40,959 nt of DNA. Origin: Lentisphaerae bacterium GWF2_49_21 (GTDB taxonomy: Bacteria; Verrucomicrobiota; Lentisphaeria; Victivallales; GWF2-50-93). The notes under the pieces were generated by a model. It made no database searches. It saw only the letters and a program-made list of their open reading frames with translations, and was not told where the DNA came from. A program made the position numbers and the translations under genes. Each line of letters opens with the position of its first letter. Position 1 is the stretch's first letter. The DNA is taken from NCBI GenBank assembly GCA_001804805.1, contig MHBH01000033.1, forward strand, positions 126,882 through 167,840, read 5' to 3'. Below, piece after piece: positions 23,652 through 28,546 of this stretch.

Positions 23652-23675
23652 TCGCCGGCGCTCCGATAAGAAGAT

Positions 23676-23695
23676 CTCGGGCAGGAATGCCCGAG
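23676..23695. terminator. Hairpin between convergent genes
   Basis: CTCGGGCA (23676-23683), loop GGAA, TGCCCGAG (23688-23695) is a perfect 8-bp stem touching the stop codon of the AraC gene and 24 bp after the EEP stop. It has a short T-rich flank (TTACTTTTCC) and may terminate the forward transcript; it also resembles the other stop-associated palindromes in this window. Confidence 0.5.
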
Positions 23696-24538
23696 TTACT
23701 TTTCCTTCTTCGGCGGATGGCCGCGGATCTTCCTGTACTGGCGGCTGAAGTAGTTGCTGTCGGTGAATCCCGAAGCGAAAGCCGCCTCCTTCACGGAAAT
23801 ATCTCCAGACTTCAGAAGCTTTGAAGCGTGCGAAATTCGCAGGCGGAGCTGGTAGTCTATCGGTGAGAATCCCGTGGATTTCTTGAAGGCCCGGAAGAAG
23901 GTGCTGCGCGACATCGAAGACATCTTCAGGAGACGTGGAATGTCGAGGGGCTCCCGGAAATGCTGTTCGATATGGCTTATTACGCTGGCGAACTTCAACA
24001 TTGGGCTCTGGTTCTTCTCGTACATCTTCGAATAGCATCTGGAGAGGAAGCCTGCGAGCCGCATGAAATGCGCGGTCGCCATGAACTCGTAGCCGGGAGT
24101 ATGCCTTTGGGTTTCATTGGTGATGTCCTCGATTATTCCGGAAGCGTGCGCTAGCTGTTCTGGAGTCAGCTGGAGACGGTGCTCGAAGCGTGCCTGTCCT
24201 CTTATTTCCGGCTGGATCATGAAGAGCGCATGGTATCCTGGGAGTTTCTTAAGCTCGCTCCTTGGCATGTTCATCGCTTCGAGCTGGAAGAGGATGTTCA
24301 CCAGATGCATGTTCGTAGTGTCGCGGTATCCATGGCTTCTTCCCTTGCGGATGATGAAGACGTCCCCCGCCGACAGCTCATAGGATTCGTTGTCGGTGAA
24401 GTGCACTCCTTTCCCACGCTGGATTATCACAAGCTCGTCGAAGCCGTGTCCGTGCAGGCTCATAGGCCCCTGCGGATACTGCAGGTTTATTACCAGAGGG
24501 AATTCTTCGGGCAGATAACGATGGACTTTGTTTTTCAT
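23696..24538 (-). CDS. AraC family transcriptional regulator with cupin sensor domain
   Basis: 280 residues from the ATG at 24538. The N-terminal cupin-like sensor domain (about 8-100: GHGFDELVIIQRGKGVHF, SAGDVFIIRKGRSHGY) is followed by a C-terminal AraC DNA-binding domain (about 175-275). The latter has two helix-turn-helix units (LDIPRLLKMSSMSRSTFFRA and ISVKEAAFASGFTDSNYFSR). Regulators of this build sense sugars and usually activate neighbouring catabolic genes; the GH106-like gene at 25433 is a plausible target. The frame stays open another 60 codons upstream to 24718, but that stretch runs through the GACNNAAAG arrays and reads as low-quality protein, so it is not counted. The four-helix element begins 38 bp upstream of the start, in the promoter position. 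Confidence 0.85.
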   Translation of the reverse strand: MKNKVHRYLPEEFPLVINLQYPQGPMSLHGHGFDELVIIQRGKGVHFTDNESYELSAGDVFIIRKGRSHGYRDTTNMHLVNILFQLEAMNMPRSELKKLPGYHALFMIQPEIRGQARFEHRLQLTPEQLAHASGIIEDITNETQRHTPGYEFMATAHFMRLAGFLSRCYSKMYEKNQSPMLKFASVISHIEQHFREPLDIPRLLKMSSMSRSTFFRAFKKSTGFSPIDYQLRLRISHASKLLKSGDISVKEAAFASGFTDSNYFSRQYRKIRGHPPKKEK

Positions 24539-24575
24539 GCTCTTAATGAATATTGGTATCGTGCGGTTTTCAAAT

Positions 24576-25306
24576 GACAAAAAGGACCTAAAGGACAGAA
24601 AGTAATACAAAATACTGGAAAATCGGAAGTCGTGAAGTAATTTGTATGAGTCCTTTATGTCGCTTGAGTCCTTTTGGTCCTTTGATTTAGGAGAATCATC
24701 CATGCCCGAACACTTCATCCCGCCGCATGGCGGGTATAAGAATCTCCTCTCTTATAAAAAGTCTGTGATAGTCTATGATGCGACGGTGTATTTCTGCGAC
24801 CGCTTTTACAAGAAAAGCGATAGGACTTATGACCAGATGATCCAGGCCGCCCGTTCTGGAAAACAGAACATCATAGAAGGAAGCATGGCTTCAGCGACAT
24901 CCAAGGAAACCGAAATTAAGCTGACGAATGTAGCCAGGGCCAGCTTGGAAGAACTCCTCGAGGACTATCGTGATTTTCTTAGAAACAGGAAGCTTGAGGA
25001 ATGGCCCAAGGAACACCGTTACGCGAAACGTTTGAGGGAGCTCAACCGCAAGCCTGATGCTGATTACGAGACCTTCCGCAAAGGCATAGAAAATCCAGAT
25101 CCTGCGATTTCCGCAAATGTGATTATCGGACTGATCAAGGTCACCAGCACTCTCCTGAAGAACCAGATAAGCCGGCTCGAGGATGATTTCGTGGAAAATG
25201 GCGGACTCCGCGAACGGATGTTCCAGGCAAGGCTGAAACAACGCCAAAAGCAGACTCTCAATTCTTGAAATTCTTTGTCCTTTATGTCCTTTGCGTCCTT
25301 TCTGTC
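24576..25306 (+). mobile_element. Candidate element: four-helix-bundle gene bounded by GACNNAAAG arrays
   Basis: Array 1 on the plus strand is three tandem 9-bp units GACNNAAAG (24576-24602). Array 2 (24650-24684) and array 3 (25273-25306) carry the same unit on the minus strand as CTTTNNGTC, with about four units each, one of which in array 2 is degenerate. Arrays 1 and 3 are therefore terminal inverted repeats around a single gene, and array 2 ends just before its ribosome site. The outer edges also share ATGACA. No transposase is present, so mobility is inferred from the layout only. Confidence 0.5.
24702..25268 (+). CDS. Four helix bundle suffix-domain protein (23S rRNA IVS protein-like)
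   Basis: 188 residues from the ATG at 24702, chosen because a TAGGAG site lies 8 bp upstream; an ATG at 24642 would translate array 2. The N-terminal IPPHGGYKNLLSYKKSVIVY and the core RTYDQMIQAARSGKQNIIEG ... KETEIKLTNVARASLEELLE are hallmarks of the four-helix-bundle family. That family includes proteins encoded in 23S rRNA intervening sequences and the Avd accessory protein of diversity-generating retroelements, here in the version with a C-terminal suffix domain. These proteins form basic barrel pentamers that bind nucleic acid; the biological role of stand-alone versions is unknown. The gene is isolated between arrays of a 9-bp repeat and matches neither neighbour functionally. Confidence 0.82.
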   Translation: MPEHFIPPHGGYKNLLSYKKSVIVYDATVYFCDRFYKKSDRTYDQMIQAARSGKQNIIEGSMASATSKETEIKLTNVARASLEELLEDYRDFLRNRKLEEWPKEHRYAKRLRELNRKPDADYETFRKGIENPDPAISANVIIGLIKVTSTLLKNQISRLEDDFVENGGLRERMFQARLKQRQKQTLNS

Positions 25307-25320
25307 ATTTTTATAGCATG

Positions 25321-25411
25321 GGACTATCGTGCTAATAAATGGGATTCAAGTTAAGGAAGGCTTCTGGAAGCCAGCTAAAATATAGCTCAGACATAAAATG
25401 CACGATAGTGC
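25321..25411. promoter_or_regulatory. Paired dyad sites upstream of the GH106-like gene
   Basis: ACTATCGTGC (25323-25332) and its exact reverse complement GCACGATAGT (25400-25409) lie 67 bp apart before the 25433 gene. The right site is itself a dyad, GCAC-GATA-GTGC (25400-25411); the left is GGACTATCGTGC (25321-25332). A small hairpin GGCTTCTGGAAGCC lies between them. This arrangement fits an activator or looping repressor; the AraC protein encoded next door is a candidate. Confidence 0.45.
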
Positions 25412-25432: not shown

Positions 25433-28400
25433 ATGAAAGACGATAATGGAAAGTTCATGAATCCAGATTCCCAGTACCGAGGCAAGCCATTCTGGGCGTG
25501 GAACGGGAAGCTCAAGGAGCACGAGCTCCGCAGGCAGCTCGATATTATGAAGGAGATGGGGCTCGGTGGAGCGTTCATGCATTCGCGGACAGGGCTTGAC
25601 ACGGCATATCTTTCCGAGGAATGGTTCAAGCTCGTCAACGCATGCGCCGATCATTGCAGGAAGAACGGCATGGAGGCGTGGATGTACGACGAGGACCGCT
25701 GGCCGTCCGGCGCAGCAGGAGGACTTGTCACAAAGAATCCTAAATATCGTCTGCGCATGCTCAGAATGACAATTTCAGAACCTTCCGGATACAAGGCGCA
25801 GGGCGGAGAGCTCGCAGTCTTCGTTGCAAAGATGGTCGGCAACAAGCTGATCAGCTACCGTCAGGCGAAGTCCGCAAGGAAGCCGGACGCTGCAGCCGGC
25901 GAACGCATTCTCTCGTTCAAGGTCCAGATCGAGGACAACTCCCCATGGTACAATGGTTACACATATCTCGATACGATGTCCGACGAGGCCGTCAAGCAGT
26001 TCGTCAAGGTAACGCATGAGGCCTACGCGAAGAACTGCAAGAAGAATTTCGGCAAGCTGATGCCGGGAATATTCACCGACGAGCCGAACTACGGGCACCT
26101 TTCCGCGAACAAGGACGGAGTCAAGCTCCCATGGACCGGCAAGCTCCTCCAGACCTTCAAGAAGAATTATGGATATGATCTTACTGACAATCTCCCTGAA
26201 GTGGTATTCAGATTGAACGAAGAGGAATTTTCCAAGGCGAGGCATGACTATTTCGAGACATGCACCTCCTTGTTCACCGGAAATTTCGGCAAGAAGATCT
26301 ATGACTGGTGCGACAAGAGCAATGTTGCGTTCACAGGACATGTGCTTTCCGAGGAATCCCTCCAGTCGCAGACACGCGTGGTCGGAGCGGCGATGCGTTT
26401 CTATGAATACATGCAGGCTCCCGGAATCGACATCCTGTGTTCCCAGGGGCTGACACGCGAAGGCAGTCCGAAACCGGAATATCTTACGGCAAAACAGTGC
26501 AGTTCGGTGCTTGACCAGTTTGGCAGGAAATGGATGCTGAGCGAACTTTATGGATGCACGGGCTGGCATTTTACTTTCGCTGAACACAAGGCTGTCGGCG
26601 ACTGGCAGGCCGCTCTCGGTGTCAACCTCCGCTGTCAGCATCTCTCCTGGTACACGATGGAGGGCGAGGCGAAACGCGATTATCCGGCTTCGATATTCTT
26701 CCATTCTCCGTGGTGGAGGGACTATCCTGTGGTCGAAGATTATTTCTCCAGGGTCAACTACATGCTTACTCAGGGCAGGCCTGTCAGGGACATCGCCGTG
26801 ATACATCCGATCGAGAGCGCCTGGGGCCTGGCGTACCAGGAGATGATTGACTGCGGATGGGATTTCCCGCAGAGGAAGGAAGGCGACAAGAAGCAGCCTC
26901 TGATAAACCTCGACGAAAACCTCAAGAAGGTCCAGCAGATACTACTCGAGGAGCATTTCGACTTCGAATACCTTGACGAGGAAATACTCTCCCGCCATGG
27001 CAAGGTCAAGGAAGGCAGGCTGAACCTCGTCAAATCCTCATATAGTACTGTCGTCGTGCCTCCGGCATACACTCTCAGGAAGAGCACCTGCGAGATGCTT
27101 GCGAAATTCGCAGCAGCCGGCGGAAAGGTGATCTTCGTGGAACCGACGCCAACTCTTGTCAACGCAGAGAAATGCGACTGCATCAAAGGAATTCTTGCGA
27201 AATCCGCAATAATTCCTTTGGACAGGGAAGCCCTGGTAAAGGCAATCTCAAAGGACAAGGAGATCAGGAAGATTTCAGTTAAAAGCGCCGACGGCAAGGA
27301 ATACAATCCATGCCTCTACATGATGAGGCAGGACAAGAACGGACGCACGGTCGTCTTCATCTGCCACACGCTGCAGGACAAGGATTCCGGAGAGGTTACG
27401 GTTGAAATCCCGTTTGACGGCGTGGCGCAGGAATGGGATGCGATCACCGGCGACGTCTATCTCGCCGATGCGCAGAAGACATCCTCCGGAGTGAAGCTGA
27501 AGACTGTCCTTTATGGATATGGAAGCAGGTTGTTCGTCGTGGATCCGAAAGCCGACGCCTCGCTGAAGAAGCGTCGCGGTTCAAAGGAGACAGGCAGACA
27601 GAAGATTGCATGCGGAAGCGTTGAAATCTCCAGGGATGAGCCGAATGCTTTCCCTCTTGATGTTCCGGAATATTCAGTGAACGGGGGCGAGTGGAAGAAG
27701 GAGAAGGACATCTTGAAGGTCGATAATGCGATTCGCGATGTTGCCAAATGGCCTCATCGTGGCGGTTCAATGTGCCAGCCATGGGCGCAGAAGGAGAGTT
27801 CGGAATCGCAGAAGGTTAACGTAGGTCTTCGCTATACGTTCGAGGTCGAGGAAGTTCCGGCAAGCCCGTGCCGTCTGGTCATGGAAAGGCCGGAGAAGTT
27901 CTCGGTGGTGCTTAACGGACATGAGCTGAAGCATGACGAAGGAGAAGGCTGGTGGATAGACAATTCATTCAAGAGGATTCTTGTCCCGGCAAGAATCCTG
28001 GTTAAAGGCAGGAACGAATTAATCCTGAATACAAGATACGGGAGGAAGGACAATCTCGAGTGCATGTATTTCACCGGCGAATTCGGATTCAAATGGGTGA
28101 ATGGGAATTGTCCGGTCATAACCAGGCTTCCGGTACAGCTTAAGCTCGGGGACTGGTGCGAACAAGGATTCCCGTGCTATTCCGGCGCCGTGTCATACGC
28201 CATGGAGATTGACGTCAACGCAGACTCAGGCAAGAAGATCGTGCTGGAAGTTCCGGAATGGAAAGGTGCGCTGGTTAAGGTGCATGTGAACGGCAGGAAG
28301 GCCGGAAACATCGCCTGGAAGCCTTACGAGATCGATATCACCAACTTCATTGTCAAGGGGAAAAACAGGATCGAAGTAGAGGTGGTTGGAACAAGAAGGA

Positions 28401-28546
28401 ACCTTCTCGGTCCGTTGCATCACAATGTGAAGTATCCGAACTGGACCGGCCCCTGGGAGTTCAAGAAGGAAGAGGCGTGGACCAACGACTACGTCAGGTT
28501 TCCATACGGGCTGATGGGCGAACCGACTGTATCCGTCAGGGAGTAA
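25433..28546 (+). CDS. GH106-like (alpha-L-rhamnosidase-type) glycoside hydrolase
   Basis: 1037 residues, no signal peptide. The N-terminus (GKPFWAWNGKLKEHELRRQL ... GLGGAFMHSRTGL) and the block MEAWMYDEDRWPSGAAGG are characteristic of large glycosidases related to family GH106. Candidate catalytic/metal residues lie in FTDEPNYG (E217), GHVLSEE (E307) and LSELYGCTGWHF (E371). A Rossmann-like middle (about 540-640) and C-terminal galactose-binding-type beta-sandwiches (about 830-1020, ending with VNGRKAGNIAWKPYEIDITN) follow. GH106 enzymes release L-rhamnose from pectin or other glycans by inversion; this protein is at the edge of that family, so the substrate is uncertain. It has its own regulatory region with paired dyads and ends in a strong hairpin. 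Confidence 0.8.
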   Translation: MKDDNGKFMNPDSQYRGKPFWAWNGKLKEHELRRQLDIMKEMGLGGAFMHSRTGLDTAYLSEEWFKLVNACADHCRKNGMEAWMYDEDRWPSGAAGGLVTKNPKYRLRMLRMTISEPSGYKAQGGELAVFVAKMVGNKLISYRQAKSARKPDAAAGERILSFKVQIEDNSPWYNGYTYLDTMSDEAVKQFVKVTHEAYAKNCKKNFGKLMPGIFTDEPNYGHLSANKDGVKLPWTGKLLQTFKKNYGYDLTDNLPEVVFRLNEEEFSKARHDYFETCTSLFTGNFGKKIYDWCDKSNVAFTGHVLSEESLQSQTRVVGAAMRFYEYMQAPGIDILCSQGLTREGSPKPEYLTAKQCSSVLDQFGRKWMLSELYGCTGWHFTFAEHKAVGDWQAALGVNLRCQHLSWYTMEGEAKRDYPASIFFHSPWWRDYPVVEDYFSRVNYMLTQGRPVRDIAVIHPIESAWGLAYQEMIDCGWDFPQRKEGDKKQPLINLDENLKKVQQILLEEHFDFEYLDEEILSRHGKVKEGRLNLVKSSYSTVVVPPAYTLRKSTCEMLAKFAAAGGKVIFVEPTPTLVNAEKCDCIKGILAKSAIIPLDREALVKAISKDKEIRKISVKSADGKEYNPCLYMMRQDKNGRTVVFICHTLQDKDSGEVTVEIPFDGVAQEWDAITGDVYLADAQKTSSGVKLKTVLYGYGSRLFVVDPKADASLKKRRGSKETGRQKIACGSVEISRDEPNAFPLDVPEYSVNGGEWKKEKDILKVDNAIRDVAKWPHRGGSMCQPWAQKESSESQKVNVGLRYTFEVEEVPASPCRLVMERPEKFSVVLNGHELKHDEGEGWWIDNSFKRILVPARILVKGRNELILNTRYGRKDNLECMYFTGEFGFKWVNGNCPVITRLPVQLKLGDWCEQGFPCYSGAVSYAMEIDVNADSGKKIVLEVPEWKGALVKVHVNGRKAGNIAWKPYEIDITNFIVKGKNRIEVEVVGTRRNLLGPLHHNVKYPNWTGPWEFKKEEAWTNDYVRFPYGLMGEPTVSVRE

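Follow-up and report, generated by a model that had tools for sequence, protein, structure and literature searches.

A four-helix protein gene bounded by its own short tandem arrays as a probable small mobile element

Short tandem arrays of one 9-bp unit surround a single gene in the genome of Lentisphaerae bacterium GWF2_49_21, and the arrangement raises the question of whether gene and arrays belong together and, if they do, what kind of unit they form. The repeat is AAAGGACNN, with a period of 9, and three arrays of it flank the gene (Table 1; coordinates refer to the window, i.e. the whole stretch of 40,959 nucleotides that was analysed). A first, sequence-only reading had placed one array in plus and two in minus orientation, and its positions hold to within a few bases. 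The second array indeed stops just before the ribosome-binding site (24685 versus AGGAG at 24689–24693) and the outer ends of the element, for which that reading had noted a common ATGACA, correspond as AAATGACA and TGTCATTT. Its placing of array 3 at 5 bp past the stop codon needs correcting, as the first full unit begins at 25277, 8 nt past the stop. Arrays 1 and 3, the outer pair, are 87% complementary across 31 nt, and arrays 1 and 2 are predicted to fold into a hairpin more stable than shuffled sequences (z-scores –2.8 to –4.1). The window has 20 copies of AAAGGAC where 5.75 are expected (3.5-fold), a number reached by none of 100 shuffles, and 8 of the 20 copies fall inside the element locus. 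The double unit GTCCTTTNNGTCCTTT is found at five places in the 5.9-Mb genome, four of them at this locus. The window gene itself contains no array. Its immediate neighbours also include a gene for an endonuclease/exonuclease/phosphatase-family protein.

Table 1. Features of the array-bounded locus, in window coordinates
Feature	Position	Strand	Description
Left neighbour, AraC-type regulator (host gene, outside the element)	23696..24538	-	Pfam AraC_binding, HTH_18; kept beside the empty site in G024
Candidate target duplication, left copy	24557..24564	.	TATCGTGC; identical 8 bases right of the element
Inserted element, ~760 bp	24565..25324	+	Absent in congener G024; ends uncertain by several bases
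Array 1	24572..24602	+	3.4 units of AAAGGACNN: AAATGACAA AAAGGACCT AAAGGACAG AAAG
Array 2	24648..24685 (about)	-	~4 units: GTCCTTTAT GTCGCTTGA GTCCTTTTG GTCCTTT, unit 2 degenerate; hairpin partner of array 1
Ribosome-binding site AGGAG	24689..24693	+	Sequence
Gene, 188-aa four-helix protein with suffix domain	24702..25268	+	TIGR04258 and TIGR02436 above cut-off; start ATG 24702, stop codon 25266–25268
Array 3	25276..25310	-	~3.9 units: GTCCTTTAT GTCCTTTGC GTCCTTTCT GTCATTT; inverted relative to array 1
Candidate target duplication, right copy	25325..25332	.	TATCGTGC; matches the left copy
Right neighbour, GH106-like glycoside hydrolase (host gene, outside the element)	25433..28546	+	Pfam Glyco_hydro_106; kept beside the empty site in G024

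The encoded protein matches the profiles TIGR04258 (67.4 bits, cut-off 40) and TIGR02436 (27.8 bits, cut-off 24), and its score against Pfam PF05635 (23.6) lies under the cut-off of 33.8. By these matches it is a member of the S23/IVP four-helix family carrying the TIGR04258 suffix, in agreement with the earlier assignment to the rRNA intervening-sequence proteins. The AlphaFold model is all helical with a mean pLDDT of 87. Foldseek searches with this model place 2gsc (Xcc0516, an S23/IVP protein) and 2rld on top, with probabilities of 1.00 and 0.90, and also return Avd from the ribonucleoprotein of a diversity-generating retroelement (DGR; 8ub7_E), all with weak E-values. The 2gsc protein is described in the literature as a toroidal homopentamer. 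A sequence search of the PDB gave no relative; a weak PDB match to IFT20 was judged to be chance. Residues Q45, S52, N56, I57, E59, A78 and E84 are kept in both suffix-bearing and plain members of the family, and E59 and E84 are invariant across 39 plain TIGR02436 sequences; any role of the conserved residues as an active or binding site is speculative. Scans against Pfam and NCBIfam recognised no nuclease, recombinase or known transposase class in the protein, nor the Y1 HuH transposase (TnpA-REP) domain.

In the congener G024 the AraC-type regulator lies beside the GH106-like gene and the element is absent. A search for such empty sites had been proposed from the sequence, and at this one the flank matches stop at window positions 24541 and 25319 and join at one base. 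The 8-bp sequence TATCGTGC stands on both sides of the element, and G024 has a single TATCATGC. The element is therefore an insertion, ~760 bp long, and the 8 bp are a candidate target duplication; at ~80% identity the exact ends are suggestive rather than proven, and both they and the duplication come from one site in one species pair. Related differences are seen at other elements of the same genome, in which four further suffix homologues occur, each with its own unit (GTCNGACNN, GTGACNNN, TCNGNCNGA and CGANNGCAAT, collected by eye and script). At the site orthologous to the second element, L002, G024 lacks the gene and has a single array with six units; the two genomes agree in the flank and over the first ~40 nt of the array. 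This difference fits either loss of the gene via recombination between arrays or insertion of a gene into an array. The third element, L003, is absent from the corresponding intervals of both G024 and G018.

The association of gene and arrays extends far beyond this genome. TIGR04258 is present in 47 of 100 genomes of the window's order, and a scan of GTDB genomes found 80 loci in more than a dozen phyla, with amino-acid identities of 52–76%. The 151 distinct suffix-bearing homologues come from more than a dozen phyla. Short arrays above the 99% level of a Markov null, here called significant, lie on at least one flank of 82 of them, on 63 flanks upstream and 47 downstream; these counts use empirical thresholds and are non-independent as the elements are related. 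The flanks of other ORFs in the same loci, which contain coding DNA, are significant in 54 of 950 cases (5.7%). The array effects are far larger than these statistical uncertainties. Under the same strict test, ~45% of the suffix homologues have no significant flank array. The period is 9 or 10 in 103 of the 110 significant arrays. Similarity between flanks, in direct or inverted orientation, is higher within an element than between elements (39 of 151 above the 99% cross-element level, p=3e-17). In some members, the variable loop before the suffix domain also encodes the element's own unit, giving loops of the SDKSDK type (14 of 147 above the 99% level, p=5e-6), whereas the unit was not found in the conserved protein core. 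Homologues mostly devoid of arrays and uniform in presence had been named as evidence against a gene–array unit; arrays were found at 82 of the 151, and presence and absence vary. At one locus (L012) the upstream array, the ribosome site and the gene start are repeated downstream of the gene, as if a second copy had been deleted.

The sequence of the unit differs between elements, and it does so together with the protein. Among 94 elements, those with more similar proteins tend also to have more similar array 6-mers (Mantel rho 0.47 between 6-mer similarity and protein identity; maximum of 300 permutations 0.10). At 60–70% protein identity, units are shared by 39% of pairs from different phyla and by 35% of pairs from the same group; below 50% identity, they are shared by 1–3% of pairs. 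These comparisons indicate that the unit follows the protein clade and not the host phylum. The sequence-only reading had proposed looking for GACNNAAAG-type arrays beside homologues elsewhere, and the expectation holds within the protein clade of the window and fails outside it, where the units of the other clades are different ones: what holds throughout is the match between a unit and its protein, and GACNNAAAG belongs to the window's clade only. Within that clade the unit and protein recur together in Acidobacteriota, Chloroflexota, Verrucomicrobiota, Hydrogenedentota, Desulfobacteraceae and Planctomycetota, and in the isolate Thiocystis violacea.

Plain TIGR02436 genes, which lack the suffix domain, were surveyed in the window's order only and not in Bacteroidota. 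Ten are present in the window's genome, most with their own unit. Across the survey, 34 of 77 flanks are significant, and the period of these arrays is 7 (26 arrays), 8 (7 arrays) or 9 (1 array), hence 7–8 in 33 of 34. In 19 of 39 plain genes, the inverted match between the gene's own flanks is above 99% of cross pairs. The period depends on the subfamily, 7–8 without the suffix domain and 9–10 with it. Of all the arguments for a protein that reads the units, presumably directly, this dependence is the strongest.

Several observations bear on movement. Mapping phylum labels on the protein tree requires 38 changes against a minimum of 14, on a tree with modest branch support, and the nearest rows to the window protein by path come from Myxococcota, Acidobacteriota and Chloroflexota. 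Part of this apparent transfer may be misbinning, as many of the genomes are metagenome-assembled. One 666-bp element is 98–99% identical in G053, G134 and G086, and 88% identical in G125 and G126. Its upstream neighbour in G053 and G134 is a gene named by eye as Sel1-like. The G086 copy has a different context but carries ~38 bp from the 3' end of the Sel1-like gene. The right ends in the three genomes coincide at AGTATTCAT, an array end, and diverge beyond it, and the left end is variable. Elsewhere, a second copy of the upstream host gene's 3' end stands downstream of the element; the host genes, identified by eye, are a glyoxalase gene, HsdM and an Eco57I-like gene. This pattern is reminiscent of elements that integrate at the 3' ends of genes, or of allelic recombination, and homologous recombination could be an alternative origin of host 3' ends that are duplicated or carried along. 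At L155 (G043:C16) two copies of an element lie close together; the glyoxalase 3' end and the start of the neighbouring gene are each repeated there as well, and the locus looks like a tandem duplication. A plasmid search gave one distant match (Prevotella nigrescens, 45%) and a phage search gave no relatives, so carriage on plasmids or phages is not supported.

Arrays also occur apart from genes. The GTCNGACNN pattern has up to 70 matches in some genomes, where the reversed pattern used as control has almost none. At 24 of the 30 places sampled, no gene of the suffix type lies within 1.5 kb. At L220 and L223, GTCNGACNN arrays are organised in tandem modules of 82 and 107 bp, with at least three consecutive copies. 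For the window unit, 100 genomes yielded one apparent solo array (L234) outside elements; three further matches (L233, L235 and L236) were set aside by eye as coding chance, in a lipoprotein signal peptide or another open frame.

The locus is probably a small mobile element in which the four-helix protein recognises the element's arrays, and so both marks and helps to mobilise the segment that they bound. The sequence-only reading had raised the idea of gene and arrays as a small moving unit, and this idea is well supported: the computed empty site, the presence and absence between species, the near-identical copies in different contexts, the transfer across phyla and the arrays at most homologues all speak for it, as do the array anatomy, the phylum spread and the ties of unit to protein and period to subfamily. 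Its other suggestion, a protein that responds to array transcripts, drew no support from the analysis. In this proposal the protein, probably as a ring, would bind several units of its own array. We infer both direct binding of the unit and the reading of several units by a ring, because unit and period are associated with the protein. An analogy for the reading of arrays, though not a relationship, is TRAP, whose ring binds RNA repeats set at intervals. The bound arrays would mark the segment for mobilisation, either as DNA or as an RNA or cDNA copy, and the hairpins of facing arrays may serve as substrate. Cutting and joining of DNA, likewise a deduced step, might fall to the protein itself through the conserved Q45, S52, N56, E59 and E84, to host enzymes, or to a reverse transcriptase acting in trans, the last being considered because the fold is common to Avd. 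Recombination between arrays may delete the gene and leave solo arrays. A wider claim, to which we give slightly less than an even chance, is that a class of transposable elements spans more than a dozen phyla, its mobiliser being a four-helix ring protein without a known nuclease fold that reads units of fixed period (7–8 bp in plain and 9–10 bp in suffix-bearing members), with unit and protein co-evolving and solo arrays being residual or non-autonomous.

The arrays could instead be sites of autoregulation or mRNA processing, where the protein binds array RNA or DNA and so controls its own expression or a hairpin cut by RNase III, with the gene spreading passively with its neighbours by recombination or transfer. 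This is unlikely, yet it accommodates several observations: the upstream arrays fold as a hairpin, the upstream gene is co-directional with the element in 99 of 116 cases, the duplicated host gene ends beside some elements suggest recombination, and RNase III removes rRNA intervening sequences that carry an S23 ORF from the RNA (PMC4990558). It leaves unexplained the clean empty site with its short candidate duplication, the downstream arrays, the arrays inside coding loops, the abundant solo arrays and the right end at an array common to three genomes. Mobilisation in trans, by a reverse transcriptase or transposase encoded elsewhere and with the four-helix protein as an RNA/DNA chaperone only, like Avd for DGRs, would account for the match to the Avd fold in the DGR ribonucleoprotein, for the absence of a catalytic domain from the protein, and for the fixed right and variable left end of the copies in G053, G086 and G134, as in some retroelements. 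We regard it as distinctly improbable; the variable left end is seen in a single set of copies, and no reverse transcriptase is found beside the window copy or among the listed common neighbour families.

A role for the gene as an accessory of restriction-modification or CRISPR operons, with the arrays as its regulatory region, is very improbable. Upstream neighbours do include N6_Mtase (6 of 53), Eco57I (4) and Cas7 (3), downstream ones Methylase_S (8 of 43) and Cas4 (4), and the figure of novel associations in a CRISPR survey, which counts in favour of such a role, includes the 23S rRNA IVP domain (PMC10910872). Most neighbours are nevertheless unrelated, the window copy lying between the AraC-type regulator and the GH106-like gene, and restriction and CRISPR genes are often transferred themselves; the association was judged to be a by-product of shared mobility. 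That the arrays are neutral microsatellites, arising by replication slippage and having no connection with the gene, is scarcely credible because array similarity follows protein identity in the Mantel comparison. Short-period arrays do occur elsewhere in the genome and unit counts vary, but period tracks subfamily, unit tracks clade across phyla, the flanks agree within an element and the flanks of control ORFs are far poorer in arrays.

The mobile element proposed here shares features with several known systems. The 23S rRNA intervening sequences with an S23 protein ORF, e.g. those of Coxiella and Leptospira, are likewise small selfish insertions that are sporadic and horizontally acquired, with one ORF of the same four-helix family and stem-forming inverted ends (PMC4990558). 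The window element differs in lying outside an rRNA gene, between the AraC-type regulator and the GH106-like gene; its kind occupies intergenic regions and operons, its ends are short tandem arrays of a protein-specific unit, and there are arrays on the gene's inner side as well. REP/REPIN sequences and their RAYT (TnpA-REP) proteins show a comparable pattern of genes flanked by repeats of their own type, many dispersed gene-free copies and a repeat type matched to the protein (PMC3116915, PMC8266576). Here, however, the protein is an all-helical bundle without the HuH/Y1 transposase domain, the repeats are tandem units of 7–10 bp rather than REP palindromes, and the distribution is cross-phylum; gene-free copies are abundant for the GTCNGACNN class, whereas the window unit has one solo array in 100 genomes. 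The REP/RAYT and the intervening-sequence systems each have a defining feature that is missing here: no HuH transposase was recognised, and the element lies outside an rRNA gene. Avd of DGRs (8ub7, 4DWL; PMC10053308) has the same fold, but the locus is without a reverse transcriptase, template repeat or variable repeat. Insertion sequences and MITEs are alike in absence at the orthologous site, inverted ends and a candidate target duplication, and unlike in that no known transposase class is present and the ends are arrays of degenerate units.

Searches of the open-access literature, with subscription journals and preprints mostly outside their coverage, found no reports of arrays at these genes. 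On sequence grounds we rate the element, with a function that we infer, as new as a system; the protein family is already known. ‘Four helix bundle’ genes of the stand-alone S23/IVP type are widespread and without a known role; the present data tie them to their own short arrays. If the locus is a mobile element, it represents selfish DNA of a new type. Many short intergenic repeats that now lack an explanation would then come from such elements, which would also offer a clue to the origins of both the rRNA intervening sequences and Avd. If the wider class exists, stand-alone S23/IVP proteins would have a function. The pairing of protein and array predicts a repeat-reading code.

Other repeats and motifs accompany these loci. 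After the endonuclease/exonuclease/phosphatase-family gene, at 23670–23708, lies a GC-rich hairpin-like sequence of 28–32 bp that recurs at dozens of places in the genome and its congeners, often with 100% identity; it is a repeat dispersed between genes and may be a terminator or a REP-like element. Another dispersed repeat, at L003:3050–3183, is ~50–130 bp long, 76–96% identical and found many times over in each of the four genomes of the genus, and as far as looked at it has no relation to the arrays. The window's genome also has many further noncoding short-period arrays, mostly of period 7 and 8 (L237–L256; G000:C61, C5), some in facing pairs with no checked four-helix gene nearby. The loci L002–L005 (G000:C24, C61, C73, C5) encode, after or near the suffix domain, a cysteine motif, CPxCG...FWGCxxYPxCKG, recognised by eye; it is lacking in the window gene and resembles a topoisomerase-type zinc ribbon.
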